A stretch of 64,000 bases of DNA from Phytophthora colocasiae (lineage: Eukaryota; Oomycota; Peronosporomycetes; Peronosporales; Peronosporaceae). Location of the stretch: positions 1,240,001 to 1,304,000 of the forward strand of contig JAGKQI010000047.1 in NCBI GenBank assembly GCA_018806915.1, in the 5' to 3' direction. The position numbers and the translations under genes are program-made. The notes beneath the pieces are model-generated. The model worked only from the letters and a program-made list of their open reading frames with translations, searched no databases and had not been told where the DNA came from. The first letter of the stretch is position 1. Every line of letters starts with the position of its first letter. This document shows, in pieces, positions 4,456-30,440 of the stretch.

Positions 4456-4910
4456 CGGTGCGTGGGGCAGCCGTCTACCGCGCGTCTCCCTTGATGCTTC
4501 GCCGAATGGTGCTAACCAAACCGTTCTGCCCTTGGTTGTGGACGGGATTTTGAAGAGCACGGACAGCGGGATAATAGAGGCAGAAAGCTCGGACTTTTGC
4601 TGCAAATAGTGCATCATTTGATGATATCATGCACGAGATATGGGAGAAGTTTAGTGTTAACATCAAGGGGCAGGCTACGCTGGTAAACGACACTTGGTCA
4701 GTGGAAACGCCAACGGAAGCATCCTGGACCAGTGTAATGCAGTTTAAGGTCAACGCACGCCTTGTTTCGGCAGCAAAATCTCAACATCTTTGGAACAAAT
4801 GGGTGACATCGCAAAGCAACAATACTGTAAACCTGACGATCTATGAGTATGCAACAAACGAACAAGTCGTGCGTCTGTTCAACTCGAGCAAAAAGGTGTA
4901 TTTTTGACCA
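4456..4910. other. Spacer between transposons with one small open frame
   Basis: The only open frame of note is 4629-4907 on the plus strand, 92 residues with no recognised domain. It ends a few bases before the Gypsy target site. It may be part of an older repeat. Confidence 0.25.
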
Positions 4911-4915
4911 ATCAG

Positions 4916-5375
4916 TGTAACGGGGTTACACGTACAAGTGATTGTACCACTTGTAACTCTAACAGTTAGGATAACTGTTAGAGGTTGGAAATGGGCCTCA
5001 GACCTTGGTGTGCAATACACACCAATGGATACATGGGCGAACCACATTATTGGATGGTTCGTGTGCATTTGTGCATATTATTGGTAGAAAGTAACGGATT
5101 TCTACCAATCACTGAGCAGAGTTTCTGCCAACCACACGTTGGCAGACCCTTTAGAAATAGATAATAAACAGTTTTAGGAGGTCCATAATTGGCTTATGCC
5201 AAATTCAATAACAGTTCTCATTTTACGGTATTTTGCAGTTTAATTTAGTTATATTTGATTTAATTATACTTATTTAAATAAGTATACTTAAATTAAGTCT
5301 ATTCTAATTGCACGCTTCCTCATACACGTAAGCGCACGTGTACGCCATCTAATAGGTCTAGGTAGACCTATTACA
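4916..5375 (+). repeat. Left LTR of Gypsy element
   Basis: 460 bp, beginning TGTAACGGGG and ending CCTATTACA. It contains at least six short-loop hairpins, for example 12-bp arms at 4957-4968/4972-4983, 11-bp arms at 5080-5090/5099-5109, a 22-nt perfect palindrome at 5265-5286 and 10-bp arms at 5350-5359/5364-5373. The AT-rich part around 5220-5290 is a plausible promoter or polyadenylation area. I could not assign a primer tRNA to the sequence after 5375. Confidence 0.95.
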
Positions 5376-5424
5376 CCTGGTAGCACTTTGTAGTCCGTCC
5401 CACGACCGACTGCTGTTCGTTCGT

Positions 5425-6381
5425 ATGGAGTCATATGAACGCGGGGTAGAGAACTCCTCAATGAATCAGGGATCCACTGGGACCCCACACATGTCCGTGA
5501 CGCGCACGGACTGTGCCCACCTGTCGGACCCAGAGTGGGAAGATCTCCAAAGACTTTCGCAAGTCATTGGAGAGGCGGCGGTAGCGACGATGCTTCGTAC
5601 GCTATCGCCAACAGAGCAACATGGTGTTGCTCTGGGGTACATTGTTAAGGAGCAACGAGATGTAGCTGCCTCGGTGGCTTCTCCGAAGCCACGCGTGGAG
5701 TCGTTGAAACTCCACGTGAGTACCTACACGGGGAAGGAGGACGAGACCCTCCTTCGTTGGCTTGTCGAACTTGACACAGCCGTTGCGGCTCGACGTATCG
5801 TCGATCCGATGTCGAAGGTCGCGTTCGCCATGTCATGTCTTGGCGGACATGCGAGGAGTTGGGCCTATGGGCGCCGACTCTCGGATCCTACGTGCTTCAG
5901 CACGTACGAGGAGTTCAAAGAGGAACTCAAGATTGCGTTTGAGCCTCCGAAGAACGAGTTCAGATCGAGAGCGGAGTTTCTCCATCTGCAGCAGGGCAAG
6001 GATGATGTTCACACCTTTGCCCAGCGTGCTCGATACTTGGTATCGAACATAGTGGCCAACCCGATCGACGAGGCGACCAAGGTCGTCACGTTCATGAAGG
6101 GACTAAGAGATGGTCCCGTCAAAACATATCTCTTTCGAGAGTATCCGAATACTCTCGAGGAGGCGATCAGCCTTGCGATGCAAGAGGAGTTTAGCCGACG
6201 TCAAGCTAAACTCCATGCGAAGACGGGAGGTCCGGAACCTATGGATCTCTCGAGTGCTACGACGGCTGGTCAACAGTAGCGTAAGAACGTCAAGGTTCGA
6301 TGTTACCTGTGTGGTAACATCGGTCACTATGCATGCAAGTGCACAGCGGGCGGGCGTTCAAAAAACGCCAAGGACCAGTAG
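5425..6381 (+). CDS. gag: Gag polyprotein (Gypsy), in-frame TAG before zinc knuckle
   Basis: Starts at ATG 5425, 50 bp after the LTR. Residues about 95-270 are a retrotransposon capsid domain (LRWLVELDTAVAARR, GGHARSWAYGRRL, FMKGLRDGPVKTYLF). The frame meets TAG at 6277-6279. The same frame then continues with a CCHC zinc knuckle (CYLCGNIGHYACKC, about 6301-6342) before a second TAG at 6379-6381. The first TAG follows CAA CAG and could be a CAG to TAG change or a readthrough codon. A slippery heptamer A AAA AAC at 6360-6366 in this frame leads to the protease frame. Function: capsid assembly and RNA packaging of the retroelement. Confidence 0.85.
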
Positions 6382-6401
6382 GCGCGGGGCGTCCTACTGG
6401 T
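6360..6401 (+). promoter_or_regulatory. Predicted -1 programmed ribosomal frameshift signal
   Basis: The heptamer A AAA AAC occupies 6360-6366 and is in register with gag (tcA AAA AAC), the canonical X XXY YYZ form. After a 7-nt spacer (6367-6373) comes a perfect 9-bp stem, 6374-6382 with 6393-6401, and a 10-nt loop. The gag-frame stop TAG lies inside the stem (6379-6381). A -1 slip moves ribosomes into the frame that encodes the protease. Slippery site, spacer length, stem and stop position all fit a Gag/Gag-Pol switch. Not tested experimentally. Confidence 0.8.
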
Positions 6402-6980
6402 AATGCAGTCTCGCGTGTCGAACTCGGACACGCGACGTTGAAGGCTGCTGCCCCCAGCGAGAAGGTTTCTCGCTGCGAGATGCAAGATGACAAGCCAGGC
6501 CTTGTCATCCTGAACGTGATGTCGAAGAGAGTGAACTCTCTTCGTGCCCTAGTGGACTCGGGCGCGTCGAACAACTTTGTTCGACAGGGAAGTCTTCGAA
6601 GGCTTGACTTCGAAGAGACCGACACGCCTCGCGGCGTGTTGGAGGTGCGGTTGGCAACAGGTGCCACCGTAAGGAGTGAGAAGCGCGTGGTCCGTGTGCG
6701 CTTCTCTTACAAACGAAGGACGTTTGTGGAAGACCTTATCGTCTTGGATCTAGACGATAAGTTCGACTTGGTATTAGGCATGCCGTGGCTTGCACGGCAT
6801 GACCCGGTGATCAACTGGAAGAAGCGTACGCTCGTACGCTTCAACAACGCGTGCGCGACAGAGAGCGATGGCCCTGTCAGTGCTGCACATGCACCAGGCG
6901 GTGCATGTGATTCCCCAGTTGAGGCAGCAGCGTCCGCCGCTACCTCCGATCGCCGCCAGCGACTCAGGGAGTCGTTGTGA
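6367..6980 (+). CDS. Gypsy aspartic protease domain
   Basis: Read in the -1 frame after the slippery site. The retroviral-type aspartic protease active site LVDSGASNNFV is at about 6548-6580, and a flap-like and C-terminal motif DLVLGMPWLARHDPVI is at about 6766-6813, as in Gypsy proteases. The frame ends at TGA 6978-6980. The RT frame (shifted again by -1) is open from 6923, so the two overlap by about 55 nt. I see no canonical slippery heptamer in that overlap, so either a second recoding event or an indel separates protease from RT in this copy. Confidence 0.8.
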
Positions 6981-9802
6981 GAAAATGTGTGTCGACTCAG
7001 AAATCTGAGCCGAAGGGTCGCGGTCACATGAGTGATGGTCAGGTGAATGTGAATCACCTGACGCATAAACATCTGAATGATGTTTGTCACATGAGCGATG
7101 GTCAGGTGAATGCAATTCACCTGAGAGAAGGTAAAATACCGGTATTACCGGTATCCTTGGAGGTACTTCAAGCCCCCAAGGGTCGCGCCGACGACGTCGC
7201 GTCAACTCTGGGAGTTGACGAAGAAAATAAAATTCGGGGAACCGAAAGACGTGCGTCAGCTCTGGGAGCTGACGCCACTGGCGCTTCGCTGCTGGGAACT
7301 AGCGATCGTTCATCAGCTCCGGGAGCTGATGATGCGTGTATAGGCGAGCGTTCGCTGCTAGTTCCGGGAGCTAGCGATCGTGCGTCACCTCTGGGAGCTG
7401 ACGATATGTGTACAAGCGAACACTCGCTAGCGCAGGAAGCTAGCGAGAGCACGTCGACTCCGGGAGTCGACGATGCGGTTGCTTCATCCGTAGGAGCGGA
7501 TGGAGGCGCAGCGGTTCAGGGAACAGACTGCGCGGCAGGAGGTGCTGGCGGTTGCAATCGCCCAGCACCCGAACAACCTGCGTGCTCACGTGCAGCGGTG
7601 CTGCACGCGATGAGCGGCACACAATCAGTGCTTGAATGTGCGAGTCAGCGGAAGGAATTCGCTGACGATGGCGATAAAGTCCCGTCCAAGGTGAGATGCC
7701 TTGGACGTGGAGCGCCTGGAGTTGAGCTCCATGGACCTTCGCGGCGCAAGCTCAGGGAGCTTTGCGAGTCGCAGTCCGGGACTGAGACGGGTGTATCTGC
7801 AGTGCAGACACCAAGTGTCGAGACGTTAAACGTCTTGACACGTACTGGTACTGGGTTACAGTACCAGAAGATGCGATTGGACAACCCGCCGACGTGTGCG
7901 TCGGCGTTGATTGCACTTCCAACGATGAGTTGGAAGCGCTTCGCGCGGGACTTGTACGATGGACGCATCGAACAAACTTGCATTCTCTTGGATATCGAGA
8001 GAGTGGATCGCGAAGCCGAGGAGCTGAAGCAGCTCGTCGTCGATGGCATCACTGAGGGCGATGACCCCCTCAGTGCGAAGACCAAGAAGCAACGCTTCGA
8101 GGAGCAGAGTTGGGACTCGTTGAAGTCGAGTCCCTATTACGAGATTCTGCGGGAGTACAAGGATGTACTCCCGGACGAGATTCCTTCGGAGCTTCCGAAG
8201 GACAAGGGCGTACAGCACGAGATTGATCTCGTGCCGGGCACGAAGTACTGTGTTACACGGCAGTGGCCACTGCCGCGTGAACAAGTTCAAGCGATCGACG
8301 ACTTCTTTGAAAGTCGTCGCCTTGCAGGTCAAGTGCGGGAATCAAAGTCCCCGCACAGTGCCCCAACGTTCTGTGTTAAGAAACCACAGGGAGACTGGCG
8401 CATCGTTCATGCGTATAACAAGCTGAACGATGCGACGATACCGGCGCAGACGCCGATACCGCAAAAAGATGTTATCATCGATTCGATGGCCTTGAGCACT
8501 ATCTTCAGTGCTCTAGATCTGCGTGATGGATTTTACCAAATCCTCATGCGTGAGAGGGACATCCCTCTCACAGCGGTAAGCACTCCAAGCGGTATGCTTT
8601 GGGAGTGGCTCGTCATGCCACAGGGCCTTAAGAACGCCCCTGCGACGTTCAATAGATGCGTGACACATCTATTGCGCTCGGTGCGCGACTTCGCACCGAG
8701 TTACTTCGACGACGTGTTCGTCCACAGCCGGGCTGTGAACGGGAAGACGGACATTGAGATGCACAAAGTGCATCTCCGGAAGCTGCTAGAGCTTATGAGG
8801 AAACATAAGCTCTATGCGAACCTGAAGAAGTGTATCTTCGGGGCGAGCGAGATACCCGTGCTGGGGTGTCTCGTGGGGAAAGACGGCGTGCGCCCTGACC
8901 CAGAGAAGGTCAGAGTGATCAATGAATGGCCCACGCCATCCAATGTGAAGGAACTGAGGCAGTTCCTTGGGCTTACCACGTACTTGTGCAAGTACGTGGA
9001 CAACTATGCGGGCAGGATTCGCCCGTTGCCACAGCTTCTTAAGAAAGAAGCTGAGTGGATTTGGACGAACGAGTGCGAGGATGCATTCGGTGCAGTCAAA
9101 CAGGGCTTGACTGAAGCGCCGATCTTGGCCGTGGCGGACCAAGATCGTCCATTCCACGTAGTGTGTGATGCATTCGACTTTGCGGTCGGATGTGCATTGA
9201 TGCAACACGATCACGAAGGGCGTGATCGTGTAGTCTACTATCAATCGCGTCAGCTGAAGCCAGCTGGGCGTAACTATCCCGTACATGACAAGGAGCTACT
9301 TGCCATGAAGTATGCACTCGCAAAGTTCCGAGTGTATCTACTTGGGAGTAGACCGTTCGTGGTCTATACAGACCACGCATCATTGCGTACGGCGATTAAG
9401 TCGCCGCACATCTCGCAACGTATGGCGAGATGGTTGTTCTTCTTCGCGGAGTACAACTTCCGGGTGGAGTACAAACCCGAAAGACTCAATGTAGTGGCCG
9501 ACGCGTTATCGCGTCGACCTGACTATGCGGAGACGGTCGACGCCAACGCAGTTGGCGTCGTGAGGACAAGTGTGCCGTCGTCAACGTTGATTGACGACGT
9601 GAAGAATGCGTATGCAAGGAATGCAGACGCGAAGGGGCTGCTGGAGTTCCTCGCAGCACCTTCCGACGTGGCACGTCGGAAGTTAACCTCTCATCTTCGA
9701 GCTCGTGTACACCGCTATCGTGTACACGAAGGCCTACTGTTGTATAGTGCAGTAGACGACCGGATCGCATTGTCGTTCCGAATGATCATGACCTCCGGTT
9801 GA
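6977..9802 (+). CDS. pol: Gypsy reverse transcriptase and RNase H
   Basis: A 941-residue open frame; its first codon is not ATG, as expected for an internal piece of Gag-Pol. Residues 1-380 are a low-complexity spacer with repeated GADD/SDR units (see the 7201-7471 entry). The RT domain spans about residues 385-640: SALDLRDGFYQI, VMPQGLKNAPATF, and catalytic SYFDDVFVHS at about 8699-8728. RNase H follows at about 715-850 (VVCDAFDFAVGCALMQ, DKELLAMKYALAKF, YTDHASL). The frame ends at 9802 by a shift relative to the integrase, whose linker reads on in the adjacent frame from about 9770 (PNDHDLRLRIIFEYHDAP). It makes cDNA from element RNA. Confidence 0.9.
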   Translation: MRKCVSTQKSEPKGRGHMSDGQVNVNHLTHKHLNDVCHMSDGQVNAIHLREGKIPVLPVSLEVLQAPKGRADDVASTLGVDEENKIRGTERRASALGADATGASLLGTSDRSSAPGADDACIGERSLLVPGASDRASPLGADDMCTSEHSLAQEASESTSTPGVDDAVASSVGADGGAAVQGTDCAAGGAGGCNRPAPEQPACSRAAVLHAMSGTQSVLECASQRKEFADDGDKVPSKVRCLGRGAPGVELHGPSRRKLRELCESQSGTETGVSAVQTPSVETLNVLTRTGTGLQYQKMRLDNPPTCASALIALPTMSWKRFARDLYDGRIEQTCILLDIERVDREAEELKQLVVDGITEGDDPLSAKTKKQRFEEQSWDSLKSSPYYEILREYKDVLPDEIPSELPKDKGVQHEIDLVPGTKYCVTRQWPLPREQVQAIDDFFESRRLAGQVRESKSPHSAPTFCVKKPQGDWRIVHAYNKLNDATIPAQTPIPQKDVIIDSMALSTIFSALDLRDGFYQILMRERDIPLTAVSTPSGMLWEWLVMPQGLKNAPATFNRCVTHLLRSVRDFAPSYFDDVFVHSRAVNGKTDIEMHKVHLRKLLELMRKHKLYANLKKCIFGASEIPVLGCLVGKDGVRPDPEKVRVINEWPTPSNVKELRQFLGLTTYLCKYVDNYAGRIRPLPQLLKKEAEWIWTNECEDAFGAVKQGLTEAPILAVADQDRPFHVVCDAFDFAVGCALMQHDHEGRDRVVYYQSRQLKPAGRNYPVHDKELLAMKYALAKFRVYLLGSRPFVVYTDHASLRTAIKSPHISQRMARWLFFFAEYNFRVEYKPERLNVVADALSRRPDYAETVDANAVGVVRTSVPSSTLIDDVKNAYARNADAKGLLEFLAAPSDVARRKLTSHLRARVHRYRVHEGLLLYSAVDDRIALSFRMIMTSG
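7201..7471 (+). repeat. Seven-hairpin array with constant loop in pol spacer
   Basis: Seven hairpins lie within 270 nt at 7201-7219, 7255-7273, 7311-7331, 7357-7375, 7384-7402, 7423-7447 and 7453-7471. Six of them have the same pentaloop C(T/C)GGG with a T-A closing pair, while their 7-8 bp stems differ yet remain complementary: GTCAACT/AGTTGAC, GTCAGCT/AGCTGAC, GTCGACT/AGTCGAC. One stem has a single C-C mismatch and one has a G-T pair. At protein level the units read like repeated LGADD/PGASDR segments. The changing but matched stems cannot follow from simple tandem copying. Confidence 0.85.
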
Positions 9803-10539
9803 GGATCATTTTCGAGTATCACGATGCCCCCATGGCAGGGCATCCGGGTCGTGAGAAGACATACACTCTTCTCACGCGTGACTTCTACTGGCACCACCAG
9901 TACAAGTGGGTGCGCAAGTACGTACGTGCTTGCGAGGTTTGTCAACGCGTGAAGCCTGCGCAGTTCTCGCAGGCTCCTCTTCAATCACTACCGACTCCGT
10001 CGGAGTGTTGGCAGTCCATGTCCATGGACTTTGTCTTCGGTCTTCCGCCTGACAGCAAGCGGAGGACGGGCATCGTTGTCTTTGTGGACCGATTCAGCAA
10101 GATGGTTCATCTTGCTGCCGTCCCGGCTACTGTTACAGCCGCGCAGACTGCGCGACTGTTTGTTGACATAGTGTTCAAACACCATGGCATGCCGCTCGAC
10201 ATTGTGTCGGACCGTGATCCACGCTTCACAGCGCGGTTCTGGCAAGAAGTGTTTACACTTCTTGGTTCACAGTTGTCAATTTCGACTGCGGATCATCCGC
10301 AGACGGACGGACAAACCGAACGTGTCAACCGCGTACTGGGTGACACGCTGAAGAGCTACGCTCACTCGTTCCCGCATTGGAGTGAGTGCTTGCCGATGGC
10401 AGAGTTTGCCATCAACAACTCGGTGCATGCCTCGACAGGGCATACACCGTTCTACGTGAATGCCATGAGGCATCCACGATTGCCGAGCATGCTCGGGAGG
10501 ATCTACGGTTGCGTCCGAACAACCGCAGAATGCAACTGA
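9799..10539 (+). CDS. Gypsy integrase, zinc-binding and catalytic core
   Basis: Contains the HHCC zinc-binding module (HPGREKTYTLL ... CEVCQRVK, about residues 15-52) and an rve catalytic core with the DDE residues in MDFVFGLP, SDRDPRF and QTERVNR. It follows the RNase H by a one-base shift and itself ends at 10539 by another shift; the remaining C-terminal part is in the next entry. Its role is integration of element cDNA, here with a 5-bp duplication. Broken reading suggests this copy could not make a full integrase without correction. Confidence 0.85.
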   Translation: MRIIFEYHDAPMAGHPGREKTYTLLTRDFYWHHQYKWVRKYVRACEVCQRVKPAQFSQAPLQSLPTPSECWQSMSMDFVFGLPPDSKRRTGIVVFVDRFSKMVHLAAVPATVTAAQTARLFVDIVFKHHGMPLDIVSDRDPRFTARFWQEVFTLLGSQLSISTADHPQTDGQTERVNRVLGDTLKSYAHSFPHWSECLPMAEFAINNSVHASTGHTPFYVNAMRHPRLPSMLGRIYGCVRTTAECN

Positions 10540-10561
10540 TAGCAGCACATTATCAGCTGCG

Positions 10562-11100
10562 GTGACGCGTGCGACGTCTCGTTCGAGCAGGAACGAGCGC
10601 GCGATGTCTGTGCCGGGCACAGACATGAGAGATGATAGCGAGCAGGTAGGGCCTGCTGCTGGCAAGGGCGACAAGCTGAAAGGATTCAGCTCGGGTGCGC
10701 TAGACTTTGTCCAGCGAAGACAAGCCGTCATACGGTTTGTCCAGGATGCTATCGCAGCTTCTGTCGATCGACAGAAGCTGAACGCTGATTATGTTAAATG
10801 AATTCAAATTGGGTTCATTGGTTTTGTTAGCTACTCAAAACCTACCTAAACATGCAGTGTCTGATTTTGGAGCAAGCTTGCTTGCTCCAAGATTCATTGG
10901 GCCGTTCAAAGTACTTGAACGGCACGGCAACGCGTACCGGCTGGACATACCGTCCAGCATGAGGCTCCACCCGACCTTCTACGTCGGGCGGTTGAAGCCG
11001 TACGTGCAGCACGGACTACCTAGGGTTGGTAGTCCGACTGAGGAGTGCGAGAGGCCTGGAAGGCCTTCTCGAGACTGTCGACACGGTCGATCAACCGTTT
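10562..11100 (+). pseudogene. Gypsy integrase C-terminal part, frameshifted
   Basis: Two overlapping frames (10562-10801 and 10791 onward) continue the integrase. The first has a linker ending DRQKLNADYVK. The second holds the SH3-like C-terminal domain of Gypsy integrases (FKLGSLVLLATQNL, APRFIGPFKVLERHGNAYRLDIP, LHPTFYVGRLKPY). At least one base shift near 10790 separates them. Pol homology fades after about 11010. Confidence 0.75.
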
Positions 11101-11195
11101 CACTCTCGTCCCAAGACCGGACGAGAGGTTCGAGGCAGTCTGAGCTGCCTTGCAGACCTCAGCACGGAGGACACGAACCTCCTGCTTCAGAGCAG

Positions 11196-12464
11196 CTATC
11201 TCAGCGCTCTGTGTCTGCTCCAGCCAGCAACTCGATCGTGCAGGGCACGATCGTCATGGTCATAGCGTTGACCATGCGGAGGGAGTGTTCCCACCCCCTC
11301 CGCCGCCGTTGCGCGACGCGCGTTGAGCGATCCGCTGGATTGTTGAGCGGATCGTGGCTCATAAGAGAACGAACTCTCAAGGGGTTCGTTTTCGTATTCG
11401 TTGGAGAGGATTTCCTCCCCATCGAGATACATGGGAGCCGCGGAACGTCCTGATGGAGGACGTTCCGGAAATGGCGAGAGCGTACGAAGCCCACCATAAC
11501 TTGCAGGGGTAAGCCCTGCACGAGGAGTGCTGCGGTCAGCCACAGCACTCGGAGCTTCGCGTAGCACAATACGAACACGGAGCTCCTTGATGTGATCGGG
11601 TACACGGACGACCGTGTACCCCAGGAGATCACTTTCGGTGAGACGTGTTGCCAAGGGTTGGCAACACGGACAGGGTGTGCCAAAGGGAACGGCACATGGG
11701 ATCCCCGCTTCCATGGACTGATCATGGAGGCGTTCACACTTACCACGCGTAGTGTAAGTGTAGTAGCGATCGCGAGCCGCAGCAACGCGCTCGCGATATG
11801 CCTTCGGGTCTTTGTTGAAGTTTTCAACAAAGGCGTTCCACGACTGACAAAGTGCCTGCCACTCTGGCACTTTGCTCTTGCGTGAAGTCTTCTTCGCTGC
11901 ATAGAATCGGAGCTCGTGGAAGAGCCCGATATAGTAGTCGCGTCTTTGAGTCTCGGACTCAAAGTCTCGTCGTCATTGATACTGTTGCATGAGTACAACA
12001 TTATTGGGTTCGGTGGTGAACTAGCACCGAACCGGTCATGGATCTCTGCCTCAGTAGGCATCCAAAAAAGGTGTGCGCACTGGCGGATCAGTGCGCGGGG
12101 CAGTGAGCGCCCTCGACATGGGGGACGCTTCATCATCACTGCGCGGACGCTTCGAGCTTGAAGCGTCCGAGGCCTCATCACGAGGTCGTCGAGATCCCAT
12201 GGGTGGGTCTGACGTGTCTTCAGACGAAGACACGGGAGCGGGAGTATTGACATCAACCTCCCCCTCCTCGACATCCTCGTCGTAGTCGAGGATGTCTTCG
12301 TAGTCCTCTCCAAAGAGTTCTTTGAGAGGGACAGCAGGATTCTTAATCTCTGCTAGAGAAGAAGACTTCTTCTTCTTCTCATGCTTCTCTTTATGGAGAG
12401 CATGGTACTTGGTGACAGAGAGCTTCTCTGTCGGACCGCTGGAAGCAGCAGTGCTAGTGGGCAC
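11196..12464 (-). pseudogene. Antisense ORF in 3' region of Gypsy element
   Basis: On the strand opposite to gag-pol. A leftward frame from 12464 has a Ser/Thr-rich start, a basic run (HKEKHEKKKK) and an acidic run (DYEDILDYDEDVEEGE). It is interrupted near 12051-12070 at a run of six T, continues in a shifted frame to about 11920, then shifts into 11870-11196. That last part (VPEWQALCQSWNAFVENFN) has a helical, possibly structured stretch followed by a Cys-rich segment (PCPCC). Summed length would be about 420 residues. I do not recognise the family. Antisense ORFs downstream of pol are known in some plant Gypsy groups, but I claim no homology. It could be random, although amino-acid patterning across shifted frames argues otherwise. 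Confidence 0.45.
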
Positions 12465-12639
12465 TGCTGAAGTCGTTGTTCCTGCTGCAGAGGCAGCGGT
12501 GAGGCTTGCGCGTCCGCAGAAGCGGACGGAGACGTGGGCATTGGCGAGTCCATTGCGAAATGAACTCGGATTTCTCTCGGGAACTTGACGGTCTTGTCAA
12601 GTTCTGTTGATTGACGTATCGAGACCGATACGTCGAATC

Positions 12640-12654
12640 TTAACGGGGGGATAG
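12640..12654 (+). other. Polypurine tract of Gypsy element
   Basis: The stretch ACGGGGGGATAG sits directly before the right LTR (TGTAAC at 12655), where the plus-strand primer is expected. It fits position and base content only. Confidence 0.6.
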
Positions 12655-13114
12655 TGTAACGGGGTTACACGCAAAAGTGGTTGTACCACTTGTAACTCTA
12701 ACAGTTAGGATAACTGTTAGAGGTTGGAAATGGGCCTCAGACCTTGGTGTGCAATACACACCAATGGATACATGGGCGAACCACATTATTGGATGGTTCG
12801 TGTGCATTTGTGCATATTATTGGTAGAAAGTAACGGATTTCTACCAATCACTGAGCAGGGTTTCTGCCAACCACACGTTGGCAGACCCTTTAGAAATAGA
12901 TAATAAACAGTTTTAGGAGGTCCATAATTGGCTTATGCCAAATTCAATAACAGTTCTCATTTTACGGTATTTTGCAGTTTAATTTAGTTATATTTGATTT
13001 AATTATACTTATTTAAATAAGTATACTTAAATTAAGTCTATTCTAATTGCACGCTTCCTCATACACGTAAGCGCACGTGTACGCCATCTAATAGGTCTAG
13101 GTAGACCTATTACA
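12655..13114 (+). repeat. Right LTR of Gypsy element
   Basis: 460 bp, matching the left LTR except for three changes near position 20-30 of the LTR and one near position 205, followed by the target duplicate ATCAG at 13115-13119. Confidence 0.95.
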
Positions 13115-13119
13115 ATCAG

Positions 13120-13373
13120 GGCTAACTATGGATTCTGTGTGGATTGAGCCAATCGTCCCGTTTCGGCAAATTTGGCCCGAAAGGACAATAGCATGTCTTG
13201 TATAAATATAGAGATTGTGCGATTGCTTGTCGGTTGGATCAAAGAACCGCGCACAGAAATTTTGAGTAGAAAGCACAATAATGAATACTTCCTCTGATTG
13301 TCATTTTCGCCTTTCCACTCAGCGAGTGCATAACCCAGCTCACTACTTCAAGCAAAGAAACACTCACTTGTAT
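13120..13373. repeat. Tc1/mariner-like terminus interrupted by the Gypsy insertion
   Basis: Read leftward from 13192, the sequence TATTGTCC...CGGGCC...GGGACGATT resembles the TIR of the element at 119-1249. The Gypsy target site (13115-13119) lies just inside it, so the Gypsy element may have entered an older copy. The rest up to 13373 shows no gene. Confidence 0.4.
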
Positions 13374-14725
13374 TTATACGTTTATGACAACTCCTTCAGG
13401 GAGTAACCTTACACCTTCTTCATACACCGCTGGATCGCAATACAATGAAGTTGGCAGCTCTCCGCGACGCTGCAGCTTCTCCTTCCCAATATGTGGGAGT
13501 TTGTACTCGTTCGAACCCCCCCCCGCTATCAGCACGCATTCCATAACCTTGTGCAACGTCAGAAAGATGTTGTTCAGCTTGTCCGTTTCCAGTATCCTGT
13601 ATGAGCCTTTGACTGCCGCAATGAGCTCATCGATATTGAAGCAGTCCTCACGATATTGCAGCGATTGCAACGACGAAAAGTACCCGAGGTCCAGCACATT
13701 AAGATCAGGACTGTTAGGCGATTGGTACTTGACACGGATCCAGCCGTCAGACAGTCCAGCCCACAGCACGTCGGGGTCATTGGTGATTGCGTGTGGCGTA
13801 GCATTGTCTTGCTGTATGAAAATTGGCATACCTCGCTCACATACCGGCCACGTAGCCTTGATAGCTGGTATAACGTAGTCAATTATGTAGCGCTTGTAAA
13901 CCTCCTTATTCACGAAGTCCAGGTTTTTAGTCTCGATGGTGCCGGCGGGTCTGTTACAACTTGACCGTAGCGCGACAACTTGTTTCGTGAAGTCCCATTT
14001 TCCAATTTTCCCGTCGAAACCAACACGACCAGCGCGATTGTATCTGGTACAGAGCGTAACAGGAATGTTAGAGCTGTAACTAATTTAAAGCTTAAGCCAT
14101 TTCATATCTGAGGCGAGCCACAGCAGCTAGAAACATAGTTTTTTTGATGAATCGCTTGCTTTTGCGCCGACGGTGAGGTGGAACTTCGCCTGGAAGCATG
14201 CAGTATGTGCACGTCAGTATCTTCATTGAACCACCTTTCATCCACGTGTACAACATTGTACATGGGGAGAAGTGGCCGTGTACGATGTGGTTTAGCACGT
14301 AGCGAAGCCGAGCCAGCTTGTTTTCTCTGGTGGGGAGCGGATGAATTGTGCTGGTGTGACGAATAATTTTCCCTTCGGCGATAGCATTGCGGACAATGGA
14401 ACACGAGACATGCAGCTCATCAGCCAAGGTTTGTACGGCGCCGAAAGGGAATGCAACTAACCTTCTTCAGGAGGTCGTAGCGATCGATCTTCTTGCGGCC
14501 TGACGAGCCCTTAATCCTGCTCGCGACACCTTTTAATCCTTCTTGGTGGTGGTTATCGAGAGAACGCTTCCAAACGCGGTCGAATGTGCGCTTTACGCTC
14601 GAGCCTTTGTCGGGTCGGCCGTGCACACCATTCATCAGCATGAAGACCACAATGTTCTGCCGCTCTCTCGTCGTCAAATTGGGCTTTTGGCGGTGGTAGC
14701 TTGTGTAGCCATCGTTAACAGGCAA
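13374..14725 (-). pseudogene. Tc1/mariner transposase, frameshifted
   Basis: Leftward relic with three blocks. 14725-14420 holds the N-terminal DNA-binding part (LTTRERQNIVVFMLMNG). 14427-14092 and an overlapping frame hold the first catalytic block (NVVHVDERWF). 13913-13374 holds the second (FIQQDNATPHA) and third (SPNSPDLNVLDLGYF) blocks. The DDE/D triad motifs HVDE, QQDN and SPDLN are therefore visible, but at least two shifts separate them, so it is not functional as read. Oomycete genomes carry many such copies. I could not define matching TIRs with confidence. Confidence 0.8.
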
Positions 14726-15397
14726 GGTGGAAGCTGGGACTCGGCAAATGACACGTTCTCGGTCAATACTAAAGTTTTTTTGCGCTTAAAAAAAGGTCGG
14801 GCTTAACGAATGGCCCAAAGCTAATACGAATGGTTGTGCTGCGTTTTGGCGCCATTTCCGACCTGCAGAGGCTTCAGCTCTTGTGGACCACCTATTAGGG
14901 AGTCTCAGAATTACGAAAGGTCGCGCCAAAATCGCATGCGATTTCGCCAAAAGGGTCGTCAAAATCGCACGGGGGTCTCAGAATTGAACGCTGTAGTCTC
15001 TACCCGAGCTGCACTCCGCACTATCATAATTGGAAAAACACAAAGCGAACATCACTCCAACGCGTCGAGTGTAATGTTTAAATCGAGTTCACCCTCTTGT
15101 AAACCAAAACCAGATTGCCGTTGCTTTGCCTCTAGAGTGTTCTTGTAATGTGCCATAAACGTACGCCAGCGACTCTGCATTTGCAGTCCAGTCAGGTGGC
15201 TCAACGACTTGCTGGACGACCATGCGAAGAGATTAATAATATGTTACTTGGCTATTAATGGGTTACGAATGGGTTACTTCGGCCTACACTTACTTTTTTT
15301 CGATACAATCAGCTGTACGATTGAGAAGTGCAACCGCTGGTAACCATCCATTACCAAGAGAAAACAAGGATGTGCTAATGCGCCTTTAGCCATCGAA
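14726..15397. other. Intergenic repeat debris
   Basis: No gene. 14898-14990 contains two direct copies of GTCTCAGAATT about 80 bp apart, enclosing a 14-nt palindrome (AATCGCATGCGATT). This may be a small solo repeat or MITE remnant. Confidence 0.3.
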
Positions 15398-16250
15398 TTG
15401 CAGCGCTCTTATGGTAATGCTCCATTTCTAAATATTCCTTGCACGGCAACTATGAATTTCAACGGCCACAGATACATAGTCAACACGAAACGCGGTCTTA
15501 CAACCTACTACCAGTGTTTTACCTATCGCTTTAGTGGCTGCCAGGGCAAGCTGAATGTTAAGTTCCTCGACAGCGGCGGAAGCGATGTGCGAAAAACCGA
15601 TGAACACAGCTGTAGAGTTCAATCACGCGCTACTGTGCGTGAATGCGGGGAAGGGATGAGGGCAATCCTCGAGACAGAGGCGATAAGTTCGCCTGGGATC
15701 CTCCCTGGTCGGATTTGGGATCGGGTCACCCGTTAGCTATCAGCTAAGTACCGGGGCCAAGCCGTAAAAGGTGTTGGTTAGGGACGAGGCAATCAGTTTC
15801 ATCAAGTTGATGCTCAAATACACGAGGAGACAGGCCGGAGGCGGCGATGTTTACCGCCAAGTCGAAACCCTTCCGGTGGTGGCCGTGTCTGAATCATCAG
15901 AGAATCGTTCCTTTGTGCAGTTCAACCTTTTCTACGACAATTTCGGTAAACGACAGCGCATCTTGGGCATGGGTCATCCAGATTTGATTCGACTACTGAT
16001 GTATCCTGGCGCGTCTCTGTTTAATCGATGCTATGTACAGTATAACGCCCAGGCCTTTTCAACAGACTCTGGTCATCATGGCGCATGACCCCGCTTACGA
16101 CGTGTACATCCAGTGTTGACGATTTTATTGGAGGCAAAACATGAGTGGAGTTACTGGCATGCGCTGCACTGGGTTTGTGTGCTTGGTAATGAAAATGACA
16201 CTTGCCAGTATAAGCTGTGATTTTGAGGCTGCTCTAATTAACCCCTTCGC
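15398..16250 (+). pseudogene. MULE transposase relic (FLYWCH end and N-terminal part)
   Basis: Frame 15398-15736 shows a FLYWCH-type zinc finger (YIVNTKRGLTTYYQC ... KTDEHSC). Frame 15771-16088 carries the linker and start of the catalytic domain (RQAGGGDVYRQVETLP, GMGHPDLIRLLMYPGASLF). It breaks off shortly after the first catalytic region (about 16140). It is closely related to the inverted copy at 18565-19809, which has the same motifs (RQATGGDVYRLIETFP, GMGHPDLIRLLRYPAASIF). Stops and shifts mark it as dead. Confidence 0.75.
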
Positions 16251-17064
16251 GAACACAGTGACTTTGTATACTATACAAACTCAATACAATTGAAAATAGA
16301 AGGTAGCAAAACGCCTCCTTCGACGTGTAGTCATTTCGAAGGGTCGGCGACCGTTAAGATGGCTACAACACAGATGGGAGCAAAACGCTACCTTCGAAGC
16401 CTTTTAAATAAGCTCTGCTATTGGCCAAAAATAAAACTTTAATCTGCGAGTTCCAAAACACGGCGATTTTCAGCCAACCAGATATCAGAAGCAATGGCTC
16501 CGGGAGTGTTAGACGTCCTTAATGTTATTCCGCCAGACGAAATCTGGACTAAAGGTATCCCGAATGCGATGTCGTTGATGTCTACAAAGGGATACAGAAG
16601 GTCATCGCTATCAAAGCTATCATCCACGTAGTCATCACTGCACGAGAAATCACTACTCTCGCTTTCAGCCGACGACAGTGGTAAAACTCGTCGACGGGAA
16701 GCCCAAGATAACCAAGGGGGGAATGGAGTGCAACCAGAAAATACCACCTGCATCGGACATAATGTCCTGCAAATGCAGGACCACGTCACTTTACATGTGT
16801 TCTGTACCGAGTGCAGGACAAAATACACATGACATTTTGTAGGAGTAGGTCGTTTTGTAGGATGCATTAACAGCACATACATGTACACGCCACTAAAGAA
16901 ATTAAACACAGAAGTGCTTTGAAGCGGAGCCTTTGTTCTCAAGAATAACACCTTACTTTTTTGCTTTACGACGTTTTGGCATTCTAAACGCCAGATATCC
17001 AGCAGGGACTGATAGCGTAACCGGGTCTGCATGAGGTGGAGGGGGCCGGCGGTGCATGGCGATG
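16251..17064. other. MULE end-region with TGCAGGAC repeats
   Basis: No intact gene; one leftward frame (16439-17068) looks like tail sequence of the MULE at 17065. Positions 16736-16870 contain several TGCAGGAC/GTCCTGCA units and resemble 17385-17540, so two copies of the same element end are present. Confidence 0.4.
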
Positions 17065-17348
17065 TCATCCATTTGCTAAAGAAAACGTTCTGCCTCTCTT
17101 GGCTCTCTCTACAAATACCACCAGGGTTGGATGTGAGCCAAACGCTTCCTTAGCTCGACGATTGTAGCTTTCGATCGGGTTGTTCGTGCAATTTTGCATA
17201 GCAATTTCTTTTTCAAATAGGAGTTCACGTTCCAGACGGTAGGCGGGAACATGGTCATCCATGTCCGAGTAAAGTAATCCCAGATCTGTGTCCACAGCTG
17301 CGCCAGCGACGGTGACTCAGGGGAAGAACTCGACCCATACACTAGCAA
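17065..17348 (-). pseudogene. MULE transposase C-terminal fragment
   Basis: Carries the characteristic C-terminal motif NCTNNPIESYNRRAKEAFG of oomycete MULE transposases, matching NRTNNPLESYNRRAKSA in the copy at 18565. Only the last part is present. It is flanked on the right by the TGCAGGAC-repeat end region and the piggyBac-like MITE. Confidence 0.75.
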
Positions 17349-17546
17349 GGATGAAGACGTCTCAGAGCCGCTTTGGGGAGAAATGAATGCAGCCAGAAAG
17401 TGTGTCCTGCATCAGACATAATGTCCTACAAGTGCAGGACATTGTGCAGGACACCATCCTCCAAATAAGGACATATTCAACCCGATAACTTGCACGGAAA
17501 TAGGTCATTCCGCAGGATAAATTACCGTACTGTCAGGACAGATTAA

Positions 17547-18481
17547 CCCTTCAACCCCCATATGTTGAAGCTACCAACATAATGGGTGTATAGCTCTTAA
17601 AACCTAACCACAGCATCTATACGCATCTTGGAGGTTCCAACATATTCGAATTTAGACTATAAATTTGTATTGAAAGTAGCTCAATACTAAAAACAAGTGG
17701 AAAAACTGTGAGAGAGAAGTGACGATGCACAGGGGTAGGTCGAATCGAAAGGAGAAAGTCTACACAAACGGACAAAGGCAGAACATTATCTGATCTGTAA
17801 CGAAATACGGTGCTGTTTCCTTGCTATGTACACCATTACTTTTTTTTAATTCGTTAACAATGAACATAAATTCCTGCCAATACATTTCCCATTAGATTGT
17901 GCCCCCTCTAAGCGCATCACTGGCCTTGATTGATCTCACAAGCAGGGCCCATTCTGTACATATCATGATTTAGATTGATGGAAATAGCACTACTAGTGCT
18001 GCTACTTTTTAGGAAATTATTTCAAGTGCATTATATTTTACTGTAATCTAGTGGCCTATGCATAGCTGTCATATACGTCGTCTTCAGCTTGACCGTGCGC
18101 GTAAATCCAAGCATGTCTAGCTACAGCCATATTTCTATAATACTACGTAAATAGTAGTACAAAGGTACATGCGTGAGGTGAGTAAGCAAGTGATGCGTTC
18201 CTTAAACACACTCTTTGTACGACTGAGGCATGCATTTTCTGAACTTGTGTTCGTGCAAAAACTTGATATTTAATAAAAAGTGCATTTCTGAAGGTTGGAT
18301 CCTCCATCATACTGGATCGTATTTGGCGATTTTGCCTACATATAGCGCAATATGTTAGAGGTCTCCCGCCAATAAATTCGTACTTAGAGTAGACATATAA
18401 AAACATCAAGACTAATTATGTTGGTGGCTCCAACAAAATGGTCAAAATATACCCCTCGAGTTTTGGTCGGGGGTTGAAGGT
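17547..18481. mobile_element. piggyBac-like non-autonomous element (MITE)
   Basis: 935 bp with short TIRs: left CCCTTCAACCCCC (17547-17559) and right GGGGGTTGAAGGT (18469-18481), one mismatch. TTAA stands directly outside both ends (17543-17546 and 18482-18485). A TTAA duplication with CCC-starting TIRs is the mark of the piggyBac superfamily. Subterminal inverted segments (ctaccaacataat, with tatacccc) also pair. No transposase frame is present. It sits in MULE end sequence: TGCAGGAC-type repeats continue on both sides. Confidence 0.75.
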
Positions 18482-18564
18482 TTAAAGTGCAGGACACATT
18501 CAACTATACAGAGCTTACTATTGAATCAAGTACAACGCGTACATGTATTCAATCAGCTTGTTAT

Positions 18565-19809
18565 CTACTTTTTACCTTTGTGGTGCTTCGGGGTCCGGAA
18601 TGCAGTATACGCTGTCGGGATCGACAAAGTCACAGGGTCCGCATGCGGAGGTGCACGGCGGCGATTCATCGCGATGTCATCCATCACCTGGAGATAACGA
18701 TTCGCTTCTTTCTTGGCCTTCTCGATGAAGACAGGTAGCGTGGGGCGTAGCCCACAAGCACTCTTTGCTCTGCGGTTGTAGCTTTCCAAGGGGTTATTCG
18801 TCCTATTCTGCATGGCTATATCCTTCTCGATGTATGCGTGGACGTTCCAAAGCTCTGGTGGGCACACTTTCATCCACGTTCAAAAGGAATAGGTCCAAAA
18901 CTGCGTCCACAAGCTGATGGTGCCCTTTTGAGCTACTAGCGACATCACGTACGGGATTAACTTGGTTATGATCTCGTCAATTGGAATGACAGTCAAAATA
19001 TCGATCACTCCGGGGGCCATGGCTTCTGCAATCTGATTGGCTGCAAATCGAAGGTCGACTAATTTTCGGCGAATGGCTTGTTTCCAATGAAACAAACATC
19101 CAATCACCGCGGACGAAGGAAATTGATCGCGTACACCCTTAATTAGGGCTGCTTGAAGTACATTTAGCCAGTGCAACACATGCCAATACGTCCACTCGTC
19201 CTTCGCTTCAACAAGCACCAATAGCACTGGGATGTAGACGTCGTAGGTCGGATCGTGGGCCATGACGATCAGCGTCTGCTGGAAGGGCTTTGGCGTGATA
19301 CTGTAGGTGGCGTCAATGAATATAGACGCGGCGGGGTATCTCAGAAGTCGAATCAGATCGGGATGCCCCATGCCTATCATGCGCTGCCTCTTCCCTCCGT
19401 TATCATAGAACAGGTTGAATTACATAAATGAACGATCGTCCGTATCAGACACCGTCACGGTTGGGAAGGTCTCGATTAGGCGATACACGTCACCTCCAGT
19501 AGCCTGTCGGCGCACGTAGTTGATGAAATTGACGGCCTCCTCCCTCCGTAGGAGTTTTACTGCTTCGTTCGAGTACTTGGCGACGACGTCACGAGATATA
19601 CGCTCCCACAGTCGCGTAGGGAGGCCACTAGGCGATGTGATGGCTTCGACCTCGAGAGTTTGCTTCATTTCCTCGGTGCAGTCTCGCACCGAGGCTCCCG
19701 TCGCTGCCTTGCACGTATGCTCTCCTGTCTCAAACGCCTGAGTCGTGCCGTCGTCTTTTCGTTTTACATTGAGTTGCCCTTGCAGCCGGACGTGCGGTAC
19801 GTTGAGCAC
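18565..19809 (-). pseudogene. MULE transposase, most complete copy
   Basis: Leftward: 19809-19420 has the zinc-finger remainder and N-terminal region (GEHTCKAATGASVRDCTEEMK). 19380-18880 has the catalytic part with IFIDATYSITP (first acidic residue) and GCLFHWKQAIRRK. 18873-18565 has the C-terminal NRTNNPLESYNRRAKSA motif. Two breaks (near 19400 and 18878) prevent a single product. Family: Mutator-like with FLYWCH N-terminus. It is arranged tail to tail with the copy at 15398. Confidence 0.8.
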
Positions 19810-20169
19810 TGGTAGTAGTAGTGGCGCCCCGCGACGTGTTGATGCAGTACTTGTAGCCGTTGTAGAGCATGTTTAAGCGTTGTAAAACAGCAAGGAAGAA
19901 CACGAATGCAGTCTCTACAAGTTTTCAATTGTACAATTGGTCTACAGCGCTTTAAAACACCATCCTGAGTGACTGGACATCAAGCATGATCGTTTTAACC
20001 TAGTCATTTAACCGGGTTATGTTGATGTTTAACCCCCACTGATTTATTAAATCATACATTAATTTAGATAAAATGTATCGTTTTAGATTAAAAAACTGCA
20101 GTCGTTTGCAGGATATATTCCTGGATCCTGCAGGACATTTTTCTGTTTGCAGGACCGATTTCTAACTGC
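19810..20169. other. Probable MULE terminal region
   Basis: No coding sequence. 20100-20160 has three TGCAGGA-type units, as at 16740 and 17390, and likely marks the outer end of the MULE read leftward from here. Confidence 0.35.
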
Positions 20170-20858
20170 ATAAAACTATCTTTCGCTTTGGGATACAGAC
20201 CCGGATCGCAATTGGCCAGTCTGGCAGATCGATGATGTGCGGCTCAGCATCGGTTCCGAGACTTCCGAAGTCAGCGTGCAGTGGGACTGGCGTCCGGCTG
20301 AGAACGCGAAGCGCTATAGGACCTGGGAGCCAATCGATCGAATGTCTGAGACTCATGCCCAGGAAATCCAGCTTGCCATTCGTTTCAAGGCTAGCAGCTT
20401 CACCCACTTCTATCAATTCTGCAAGCAGGATGACTACGGCAAACGCATTATCGCGGCCAGTGACGATTACAGCTGCATTTTCAATGCACTGAACTTGGCA
20501 ACTCGTTTGATCGGAAGACCGACCCTATTTCCTCAGGACGTGGTGGATAAGTTTCTCGCTGATGAGCCCAAGGAGGGTCGTGATTTACGCACAGGCTGTA
20601 CATGGAAGACGTTCGCCAAGTTACTACCAAGATTGCGGAAGGCCAAGTGTTGACATTGTGGTCAACCTGCTCCGACAGAACAAGGTGCAGGGTGGTCGTC
20701 GTGGAGCTCGAGTTCTCCTAGAACTCCCTTTGGATGATGGATTGTACCTCGTTGGTGCCTACAACCGCAACTTCTATGGACACTGTGTCGTGCATCGTGA
20801 GGAGAATAACGACAGGGACCGCATGGTGATCGACAAGACAGCGACGGCAATATTTTGA
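20170..20858 (+). pseudogene. Chromo-like plus cysteine-peptidase-like fragment
   Basis: A forward frame open from at least 20176 has a chromodomain-like segment (VSVQWDWRPAE ... YRTWEPIDRM). It is followed by a stretch with ASDDYSCIFNALNLATRL and, after a one-base shift near 20640, GLYLVGAYNRNFYGHCVVHR. The Cys in DYSCIFNA and the His in YGHCVVHR could be the catalytic pair of a papain-like fold peptidase. This is inference; no family is confirmed. It lies between a MULE end and the 3' end of a Copia element and probably belongs to a mobile element. The frameshift suggests it is dead. Confidence 0.35.
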
Positions 20859-21026
20859 AAGTGTCTGTGGCCAAGTAGGAGTGGATTAACTTCTACTCAT
20901 TTGTGCGCCCGTTCCGCGTGTTCAAGTCTCGTGAATAGATGAGAGAACTGTCTAAGGTGGTTTTCGGTAGGTTTTACATCGAGGACAACAAATTGCATGC
21001 CTGCCATTCTATTGTTTATCCAATAC

Positions 21027-22827: not shown

Positions 22828-23352
22828 GCTCGAGGAATGTCAGAGTAGGGAATGTGGGGTTAATTATCCAGTTTATGAAGGAGATGCAAGGTGCTGCGTT
22901 ACATGGGGCTGTAAATGATCCTGTTCTCCGTTTTACTGAGGAGTCGGTAGCCTTTTTTGTTTTGAGGCAAGCCGAGAAATATGCAGAGTTTGGCACGAGA
23001 ATCAAGTTTGTTGCGGTGTGCTGCTGGTGTCAAAGCAAAGCTGCGCAGCCAAACACTTTTACATACTGCAGGGAAGGCTTTCGTCCATGCCAGAGTTCAT
23101 AAGGTGTGACCCGGGTGGCAAGACTCTGCTTGGTATCACATTGATCAGATGAGCGACGTATTGGCAGCACTCCCCCCACAACTGGCGTGGTAAATCACCG
23201 TCAATGAGGAGAGCTCGGACACACTCAAGGATAGTGCGCGCCCGGCGTTCTGCTACTCCGTTCTGCTGTGGTGTATATGCGTTGGTGAATTGAGCATGGG
23301 TGCCATACTTATCGAAGATAAAGTCTGCCGAGCTTTTCGTACTCTTTACCAT
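22655..23352 (-). pseudogene. Copia integrase fragment
   Basis: Contains the integrase core segment FTNAYTPQQNGVAERRARTI, with the catalytic Glu, followed by the Copia-typical stretch on relocation of the host site (LPRQLWGECCQYVAHLIN). The remainder to 22655 is Ser/Lys-rich and broken. The first catalytic Asp region is not recognisable in one frame. Confidence 0.7.
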
Positions 23353-29140: not shown

Positions 29141-29266
29141 TGAATGACACCAGTTCTGTACCAAAGTCTACTATTTCGTTGTTCATTCCACTCAGAAGCT
29201 CTCCGCCTCCCAGACGCGACAGAGACGAATCGGAAGGGATTCTTCGTTTCATCGGTGAAGGGGTGT

Positions 29267-29511
29267 TGTAACGGAGTTATTAACTCCGTTTACGACCTCA
29301 CTGAGGTCATTGAGGTTTACTCCAATGATAATGACCTCAGCAAGGTCGAGTTGATATGCATAAACTAGTTTACTTGCTACTTGAGGTAGCTCAGGTTTAC
29401 TCCTTTTTGACTGGCTGCAACAGAGCAGCAGTAGTAGGAAAAAGCAAGTAAATATCAATACACTTTTCAATTTACCTTTCAAGGATAACAGCTTCCTCTC
29501 GCTACATCACA
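29267..29511 (+). repeat. Left LTR of gag-only element
   Basis: 245 bp, starts TGTAACGGAG and ends CTACATCACA. Near its start are two perfect short hairpins (AACGGAGTTA...TAACTCCGTT, then GACCTCA...TGAGGTC). Confidence 0.95.
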
Positions 29512-30418: not shown

Positions 30419-30440
30419 GCCGCTCTTTGAAGCGGGGTCG

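Follow-up and report, generated by a model that had tools for sequence, protein, structure and literature searches.

This locus raises a key question: why does an LTR retrotransposon of Phytophthora colocasiae carry short perfect hairpins along its full length, and are they kept by selection, written by the copying enzyme or produced by base composition? The element lies at positions 4916-13,114 (plus strand, 8199 bp) of the window, i.e., the whole 64,000-nucleotide stretch that was analysed. It is flanked by the 5-bp target duplication ATCAG (4911-4915 and 13,115-13,119) and bounded by two plus-strand LTRs of 460 bp (5' LTR, 4916-5375, with the ends TGTAAC...TTACA; 3' LTR, 12,655-13,114), which differ at 4 of 460 positions. 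The short duplication and the TG..CA ends, together with Pfam matches in the order gag, protease, RT, RNase H and integrase, identify a Ty3/Gypsy LTR retrotransposon. Its plus-strand frames comprise gag (5362-6279, stop to stop; Retrotrans_gag, 1.7e-14; Ty3_capsid, 1.1e-9), protease (6318-6980; RVP_2, 4e-9), RT and RNase H (6923-9802; RVT_1, 2.9e-26; RT_RNaseH, 1.8e-32), integrase (9748-10,539; Integrase_H2C2, 3.1e-21; rve, 5.7e-10) and a frame with an SH3_Tf2-1 stretch, the C-terminal part of integrase (10,782-11,453; Pfam 1.8e-14). On the minus strand, between pol and the 3' LTR, lies an antisense gene in two parts (first part, 12,051-12,596, broken in the window copy; second part, 11,196-11,972). 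An Rfam search of 4900-13,150 gave no matches. The coding frames of the window copy are broken, and long open frames are present in other copies of the genome; since the RT-containing frames of those copies reach 1753 aa, the frameshift assumed in the original prediction is probably a break in the window copy.

The ten stem pairs named in that prediction are exact reverse complements, among them two hairpins inside the 5' LTR (4957-4983, 12 bp; 5080-5109, 11 bp). In the stretch singled out as densest (6298-6909, plus strand) the stems are likewise exact; seven of the quoted stems, not eight, lie there, and further unquoted ones are present (12 stems of at least 9 bp in the protease region, 6318-6977). 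Counting non-overlapping perfect hairpins with stems of at least 9 bp and loops of 0-15 nt, we found 83 in the element against a mean of 0.35 (maximum 2) in 20 dinucleotide shuffles, a stronger excess than first stated; the shuffle mean, ~0.026 per 600 nt, is close to the earlier chance estimate of about 0.02. The neighbouring sequence lacks the pattern, as had been claimed: the flanks hold 8 such hairpins in 55.8 kb, none in the 4915 bp on the left and 8 in the 50,886 bp on the right, where shuffles of five 10-kb pieces sum to ~3.5, i.e., a slight excess far below that of the element. Centres of stems of at least 7 bp are spaced at a median of 45 nt (interquartile range 36-75), and hairpin density over the LTR, gag and pol is about the same as over the antisense gene. 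Thus, hairpins do occur throughout, but the description of an element built "almost entirely" from them is overstated, because stems of at least 7 bp plus their loops cover 38% of it. The excess of these stems is 19.3 fold for loops of 0-15 nt, 1.4 fold for loops of 16-60 nt and 1.0 fold for loops of 61-150 nt, and only 5 mirror repeats of at least 8 bp with short spacers were found, versus 110 inverted repeats.

Could the excess be an artefact or an effect of composition? In codon-preserving shuffles (100 each, stems of at least 8 bp), the observed and expected numbers were 7 and 0.22 in gag, 12 and 0.64 in protease, 38 and 1.5 in RT-RNaseH, 6 and 0.34 in integrase, and 7 and 0.54 as well as 12 and 0.58 in the two antisense frames; for stems of at least 9 bp the RT-RNaseH frame had 31 against 0.4. 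An artefactual origin, for which we found no supporting evidence, is contradicted by both kinds of shuffle, the flanks, other elements and 38 further copies, and we regard it as having a negligible chance of being correct.

The shuffle comparison proposed at the outset extends to folding energy. In 40 element windows of 200 nt, the mean folding z was -4.7 for the sense and -5.9 for the antisense strand, well below shuffled sequence, compared with 0.13 and 0.23 in 27 flanking windows; these values refer to dinucleotide shuffles, the codon-preserving control covering hairpin counts only. The antisense strand folds at least as well as the sense strand relative to shuffles. A strand preference was considered and rejected: the two strands differ against shuffles, yet their shuffled baselines differ too, so that no strand is inferred. 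Genome-scale ordered RNA structure along the whole genome is described for RNA viruses in the available text of PMC9784701, and the element resembles these genomes in folding better than shuffles throughout, coding regions included; it differs from them, on the same partial basis, in being an LTR retrotransposon with short perfect Watson-Crick hairpins and no G-U preference. As in the leviviruses MS2 (NC_001417) and Qbeta (NC_001890), the stem excess is limited to loops of 0-15 nt, where it amounts to 4.8 fold in MS2 and 6.7 fold in Qbeta against 19.3 fold here. Stems of at least 9 bp number 1 in 3.6 kb of MS2, 5 in 4.2 kb of Qbeta and 85 in 8.2 kb of the element.

Pair types separate these systems further. 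The phages lean to G-U (28 vs 13 for both together; 36 vs 22 at a looser setting) and the window element does not: it shows no preference for G-U over A-C, A-G or C-T, and the window family counts 45 G-U versus 64 A-C (10.3 and 8.8 in shuffles). An excess of G-U over A-C on the RNA strand was our own expectation for ordered RNA structure, absent from the definition of such structure in the source text available, and it was not borne out; the absence of a G-U preference is unexpected under RNA-level selection. In the related family D, an apparent G-U lean of 17 vs 6 on 1.9 kb faded to 33 vs 18 on 5.3 kb (6.2 and 4.3 in shuffles). Without such a preference, what counts may be the two strands together, or DNA. 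This bears on the possibility that selection acts on the structure of the sense genomic RNA only, to the benefit of packaging, compaction or nuclease protection in virus-like particles, on the model of RNA phages and of viruses with genome-scale ordered structure. The short-loop profile shared with MS2 and Qbeta, the similar density along the entire element and the avoidance of stems by variants common to several copies (see below) are in its favour, whereas the missing G-U preference, unlike in the two phages, and the at least equal antisense folding speak against it; we consider it unlikely.

The most direct evidence on selection comes from the other copies of the element. We used copies scored by searches, namely 40 of 657 LTR candidates (30 fetched) plus 10 less similar RT copies chosen from 150 scored; L001 and L002 (the window copy) and the chimeric copies L061 and L062 were excluded from these statistics. 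Alignments had at least 300 bp and at least 85% identity (88% for the list of hairpin gains), with a minimum of 8 copies per site for variant counts, 6 per pair for the compensated-pair test and 5 for the G-U test. All 38 of the 38 other copies examined are hairpin-rich, and the hairpins at 6298-6639 are present in the 12 copies covering them. Of 988 sites in stem interiors, 4 have a variant found in at least 3 of the 38 copies, the window copy being omitted; the corresponding numbers are 20 out of 373 for loops and 104 out of 3606 for the remaining sites. Fisher tests of stem interiors gave p 6.9e-6 against loops and 1.2e-5 against the remaining sites, and 3.6e-4 and 4.1e-4 when the strictest version was applied. 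Singleton variants number 94, 48 and 382, respectively. Spreading variants thus spare the stems and single-copy changes strike them freely, i.e., the hairpins are maintained. For the 3' part alone, the contrast of stem interiors with loops gave p 0.012 and that with other sites was not significant (p 0.6); in the gag part alone, neither contrast was significant (p 0.065 and 0.22).

The same copies bear on a purely mutational origin, put forward in the original prediction as template-switch repair, in which snap-back of the reverse transcriptase makes one arm the template for the other, perfecting near-palindromes in each cycle without structural selection. With repair of this kind, roughly half of all changes would be expected as pairs; the search for compensatory changes in aligned copies found no compensated pair common to several copies in stem interiors and one at a terminal pair, and the haplotype tally was 1 compensated versus 159 broken cells. 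The exception is an array of related hairpin units with the core CTCYGGGAG or similar (7199-7480, plus strand), whose arms vary from unit to unit with pairing mostly kept and in which, at 7357-7403, copies carry differing paired arms. Stems that pair perfectly by Watson-Crick rules without favouring G-U, and the restriction to short loops, are also what repair would give, as is a mild lean in one-sided pair changes relative to family E (67 right, 45 left); this arm split, however, lies within random dealing (p 0.29), with third positions near saturation. Fourteen hairpins occur in at least two copies but are absent from the window copy, and 8 of them, outside the array units, differ there by a single substitution, which argues against repair, as does the trade-off of stem length against GC. 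Selection on local folding is favoured over template-switch repair because of the stem avoidance, the longer AT-rich stems and the lack of a shared compensated pair, and we judge repair improbable.

The trade-off is seen in 92 internal hairpins, in which stem length falls as GC rises (r -0.25, permutation p 0.008). Mean energies for stems of 8, 9, 10 and 11 bp are -11.4, -13.1, -13.9 and -13.3; the typical selected hairpin would have mostly 8-11 Watson-Crick pairs and about -13 kcal/mol. Stems with a loop of 0 average 11 bp (n=4) versus 9.2 bp for loop 4 (n=9). Over its full length a hairpin measures 23.7 +/- 3.0 nt (99 hairpins), which varies less than in permuted stem-loop pairs (p 0.001) and is close to the Phytophthora small-RNA sizes of 21 and 25/26 nt. 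A small-RNA size ceiling was nevertheless not supported, the effect being non-significant for loops of at least 3 nt (p 0.12) and longer stems having no steady decrease in loop length. Hairpins acting in DNA, as cDNA hairpins or cruciforms of integrated copies that, e.g., protect minus-strand cDNA or control copying, would agree with Watson-Crick-only stems without strand preference and with hairpins in the LTRs; short-looped stems of 8-11 bp fit RNA equally, we know of no precedent for a whole element, and we hold such a function to be quite improbable, slightly more so than repair.

Is the habit confined to this family? Four relatives in the same genome, B, C, D and E, show 6.6, 5.6, 9.8 and 3.1 fold excesses (stems of at least 7 bp, loops of 0-15 nt), and the four distant Gypsy loci tested showed none. 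The expectation that other Gypsy families would differ thus holds for the distant families tested but fails for the nearest relatives. Folding z is about -2.5 and -2.2 in family E (the control mixed strands of E) and only about -0.7 to -1.7 in B and C, despite their antisense frames. Hairpins of families B-E lie at mostly different sites from those of the window family, with some paired synonymous differences; centres shared between families exceed sliding controls (4 vs 0.59 between the element and D, 3 vs 0.57 between the element and B). Shared ancestry of the hairpins was rejected: of 227 pairs at the hairpins of the window element, 97 also pair in relative E (88 without any change), and 9 of 27 pairs with both sides changed still pair, about the third expected by chance. 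Gypsy RTs of P. cactorum, P. cinnamomi, P. fragariae, P. rubi and other Phytophthora species, compared as proteins alone, share 60-91% identity with the RT-RNaseH query in the best 120 of 4613 matches. A scan of viral contigs gave no relatives of the element. In line with the statement that no description was known, our literature searches found no retrotransposon with hairpins at this density. Local RNA structure tied to small RNAs is reported for maize transposable elements in the part of PMC10760457 available, where the folds are pre-miRNA-like and dozens of perfect 9-11 bp hairpins are not mentioned. The ordered-structure reading of the original prediction is supported in part, by stem avoidance, the GC trade-off, short loops and a habit common to relatives, and is at odds with the lack of a G-U preference.

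The antisense gene suggests what the folding might be for. Of 626 candidates, 150 were scored, and many of these have it in open frames of ~550 aa; it lies in the same place as in the aORF-3R elements of PMC7264820, from which the element differs in its oomycete host; in the accessible text of that source, the hairpin habit is not described and the term "secondary structure" occurs 0 times. Antisense frames are present in the window family and in three of the four relatives (B, C and D); those of B and C are homologous (E 7e-17), and the second part of the window gene has weak homology to the frame of C (E 0.001). In E, which has the fewest hairpins of these families, two copies have no antisense frame of at least 130 aa except one overlapping the sense frame, the association of antisense genes with hairpins being based on five related families. 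According to the portions available, Phytophthora antisense overlaps yield small RNAs of 21 and 25/26 nt (PMC10080066), and it has been suggested that LTR elements are silenced through duplexes between their genomic and antisense RNA (PMC7264820). Our leading but unproven guess is that hairpins prevent the sense RNA from pairing with the antisense RNA and so shield both from RNA silencing. Predicted 8-nt windows open on a single strand are modestly rarer than in shuffles (sense, 0.011 and 0.017 observed, 0.018 and 0.022 shuffled; antisense, 0.023 and 0.018 observed, 0.042 and 0.034 shuffled). Windows open on both strands at one place are not (0.006 and 0.008 vs 0.005 and 0.004), and the least open family is E, which has no separate antisense gene, so this test does not support the strand-separation step. 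The guess is also opposed by the better-than-chance folding of E, by the weak folding of B and C and by the even hairpin density outside the antisense gene.

Starting from the excess of hairpins, their presence in the examined copies and relatives and their maintenance among spreading variants, we somewhat favour the reading that this multi-copy Ty3/Gypsy family has been shaped by selection to fold locally, the self-pairing of single strands being selected for its benefit in strand separation and silencing evasion. Coding and non-coding sequence alike would be selected to form a hairpin every ~45-60 nt. The selected trait would be local self-pairing of genomic RNA and perhaps of antisense mRNA or cDNA, the latter two being considered because G-U pairs are not favoured. 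The benefit, a weaker step, might be that long sense-antisense RNA duplexes are prevented and the RNA is hidden from host small-RNA silencing. A bolder version, which we find doubtful if conceivable, is that in a clade with genes on both strands a hairpin code has arisen that is strand-symmetric, uses Watson-Crick pairs only, spans the full length and is written largely in synonymous codons, so that sense, antisense and small RNAs fold on themselves as an armour against silencing.

It appears that natural selection preserves the hairpins, and this suggests that the element depends on the shape of its single strands besides its proteins. RNA viruses are known to have selected structure throughout their genomes; at this density it is new to our searches for a retrotransposon. 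The relatives within one genome, ranging from 3 to 19 fold and with mostly differing hairpins at homologous sites, offer a system in which to ask what drives the writing of hairpins and if RNA silencing is responsible. In such elements the use of codons may be non-neutral, which would affect dating based on synonymous sites.

The genome (92.5 Mb in 105 contigs) was searched for copies and relatives of the Ty3/Gypsy element at 4916-13114, which is bounded by 460-bp LTRs differing at 4 positions and flanked by a 5-bp duplication, ATCAG. Gag, protease, RT-RNaseH and integrase domains are present, and an antisense gene sits ahead of the 3' LTR. The frames of this copy are broken. In other copies, open frames stretch to as much as 1753 aa with RT included, and antisense frames of ~550 aa occur in many of 150 rows scored; 10 antisense frames of 411-503 aa were found in the fetched loci. 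Among the best 120 of 4613 protein relatives, those named by organism were from Phytophthora, plus one from Globisporangium, which points to a Phytophthora as the probable host.

All ten hairpins quoted in the original prediction are exact in the sequence. The element holds 83 non-overlapping perfect hairpins of at least 9 bp, compared with 0.35 in dinucleotide shuffles; the corresponding values are 105 and 1.75 for at least 8 bp, 136 and 6.7 for at least 7 bp, and 175 and 25 for at least 6 bp. The commonest stem length is 9 bp (41 of the 136 stems of at least 7 bp), just 3 stems exceed 11 bp, and the excess is restricted to loops shorter than ~15 nt. Codon shuffles in six frames of the element did not reproduce it. 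Folding z-scores were -4.7 and -5.9 in the element versus ~0 in 27 flanking windows; distant elements gave +0.7 over 54 windows. Among the papers listed by searches of an open-licence library, no title or abstract opening described hairpins along a whole retrotransposon.

Elsewhere in the window, 7-bp stems are mildly in excess at 14000-24000 (21 versus 6 in shuffles), several of them bearing a TGCAGGA motif (16764-20154). Two 252-bp direct repeats (29260-29511 and 30434-30685; 99% identical, starts 1174 bp apart), each with one 10-bp hairpin, are possibly a short non-autonomous LTR element, and a 78-bp inverted repeat (58413-58490 and 59070-59147; 95% complementary, arms 579 bp apart) is MITE-like.

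Do other Gypsy families differ in hairpin excess, as originally expected? They do in the case of distant Gypsy loci (four pooled, 0.3-fold), but not in that of four nearer families, B, C, D and E (RT-RNaseH 60-64% identical), with 6.6-, 5.6-, 9.8- and 3.1-fold excesses, respectively; the element itself reaches 19.3-fold, in contrast to 4.8-fold in MS2 and 6.7-fold in Qbeta (all for stems of at least 7 bp with loops of up to 15). For loops of 16-60, B shows 1.9-fold and D 1.8-fold. The thirty LTR-fetched loci, two of them the window copy itself, have 12-41 stems of at least 9 bp each, and ten further RT copies have 17-37, while such stems are absent from 29 of 30 loci fetched by Pfam RT (nine groups, partly near-identical), the remaining one having a single stem. 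The four distant loci (L037, L046, L052 and L059; 3 stems of at least 7 bp versus 11 in shuffles) look as if they avoid local hairpins. On contig C99, L026, L061 and L062 represent two chimeric elements in which a hairpin-poor upstream pol part resembling family E (87%) joins, within RT, a hairpin part whose RT belongs to the hairpin family. Hairpin positions mostly differ from family to family; where centres coincide, some pairs carry synonymous differences on both sides (for example, alignment columns 310-326, window family versus E). The array at 7199-7480 consists of paralogous units with a common core, whose arms differ yet mostly still pair.

Comparison of 38 copies shows that the stems are maintained among copies that spread, since variants present in at least 3 copies spare stem interiors (4/988 sites, versus 20/373 in loops and 104/3606 in the rest), whereas singletons are more evenly spread (94, 48 and 382, respectively). 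The contrast persists when the count is limited to positions with the majority base in the window copy (3/987, 12/352 and 68/3476). Single-copy changes, presumably the result of post-insertion decay, strike stems freely. Stem ends are not clearly spared by shared variants (5/274; a separate test gave p = 0.45 versus other sites). By region, the contrast is clear in pol, where none of the variants present in at least 3 copies hits a stem interior (p = 0.0025 and 5.9e-6). Gag is too small a part for significance (p = 0.065 and 0.22), and in the 3' part stem interiors are distinguishable from loops (p = 0.012) though not from the remaining sites (p = 0.6). Stems are shorter at higher GC and longer where the loop is 0, the pattern that retention of folding energy would produce.

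The alternative in the original prediction, repair by arm-to-arm copying, predicts that about half of changes are compensated pairs. Among the aligned copies, no compensated pair is shared in stem interiors and one lies at a terminal pair. Certain copies carry different paired arms in the array at 7357-7403, which may reflect shuffling of array units. Relative to E, differences are divided between the two arms no more unevenly than random dealing would give (mean absolute difference 0.185 versus 0.171 at random, p = 0.29), although one-sided changes affect the right arm in 67 pairs and the left arm in 45. Third positions approach saturation in this comparison, with 0.39 identity within stems and 0.44 elsewhere; at the protein level, identity to E is 0.57 over 101 stem codons and 0.65 over 369 non-stem codons.

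No G-U preference was found in stems of at least 9 bp with one mismatch class (G-U 42, A-C 54, A-G 44, C-T 36); our reading is that both strands, or the DNA, need to pair. Family-fixed mismatches under strict criteria comprise G-U 5, A-C 6, A-G 5, C-T 3, A-A 2 and C-C 1; under looser criteria, A-C accounts for 17 and G-U for 10 of 44. Families B, C and D pooled give G-U 66 and A-C 61. In contrast, MS2 and Qbeta pooled lean to G-U (28 versus A-C 13), a modest control because the contrast weakens at stems of at least 8 bp (36 versus 22).

Antisense frames lie ahead of the 3' end in the window family, B, C and D, that of C having been predicted before its sequence was inspected. Those of B and C are clearly homologous (E = 7e-17; 34% identity across 157 aa), that of the window family shows weak homology (E = 0.001), and that of D has no detectable homology. 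Several Gypsy families of the genome retain the antisense gene (window 11196-12596, minus strand; L087, L089 and L090), which has no Pfam match above the curated cut-off. Family E, with the fewest perfect hairpins, has in the two copies tested no antisense frame of at least 130 aa except one of 228 aa overlapping the sense frame. The association covers a small number of families, five, which are mutually related.

A proposed role of local structure in RNA phages is to hold plus and minus strands apart. Here, hairpins would keep sense and antisense RNA from pairing, and thereby away from RNA silencing. In plants, antisense/genomic RNA duplexes have been suggested to cause LTR element silencing (PMC7264820); in Phytophthora, antisense overlaps yield 21 and 25/26 nt small RNAs, far fewer than transposons do (PMC10080066), and most P. 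infestans small RNAs map to transposable elements, chiefly LTR elements (PMC3522703). Against strand separation, E, which lacks a separate antisense gene, is the least open in predicted 8-nt sites and shows good overall folding, B and C show only a slight overall folding advantage over chance, and hairpin density far from the antisense gene is about that over it. Predicted open 8-nt sites are only modestly rarer than in shuffles on single strands, but not on both strands at one place. Given the antisense frames in hairpin families, together with the plant, Phytophthora and phage background, strand separation with avoidance of silencing is our leading guess for hairpin function, much less certain than selection on the stems.
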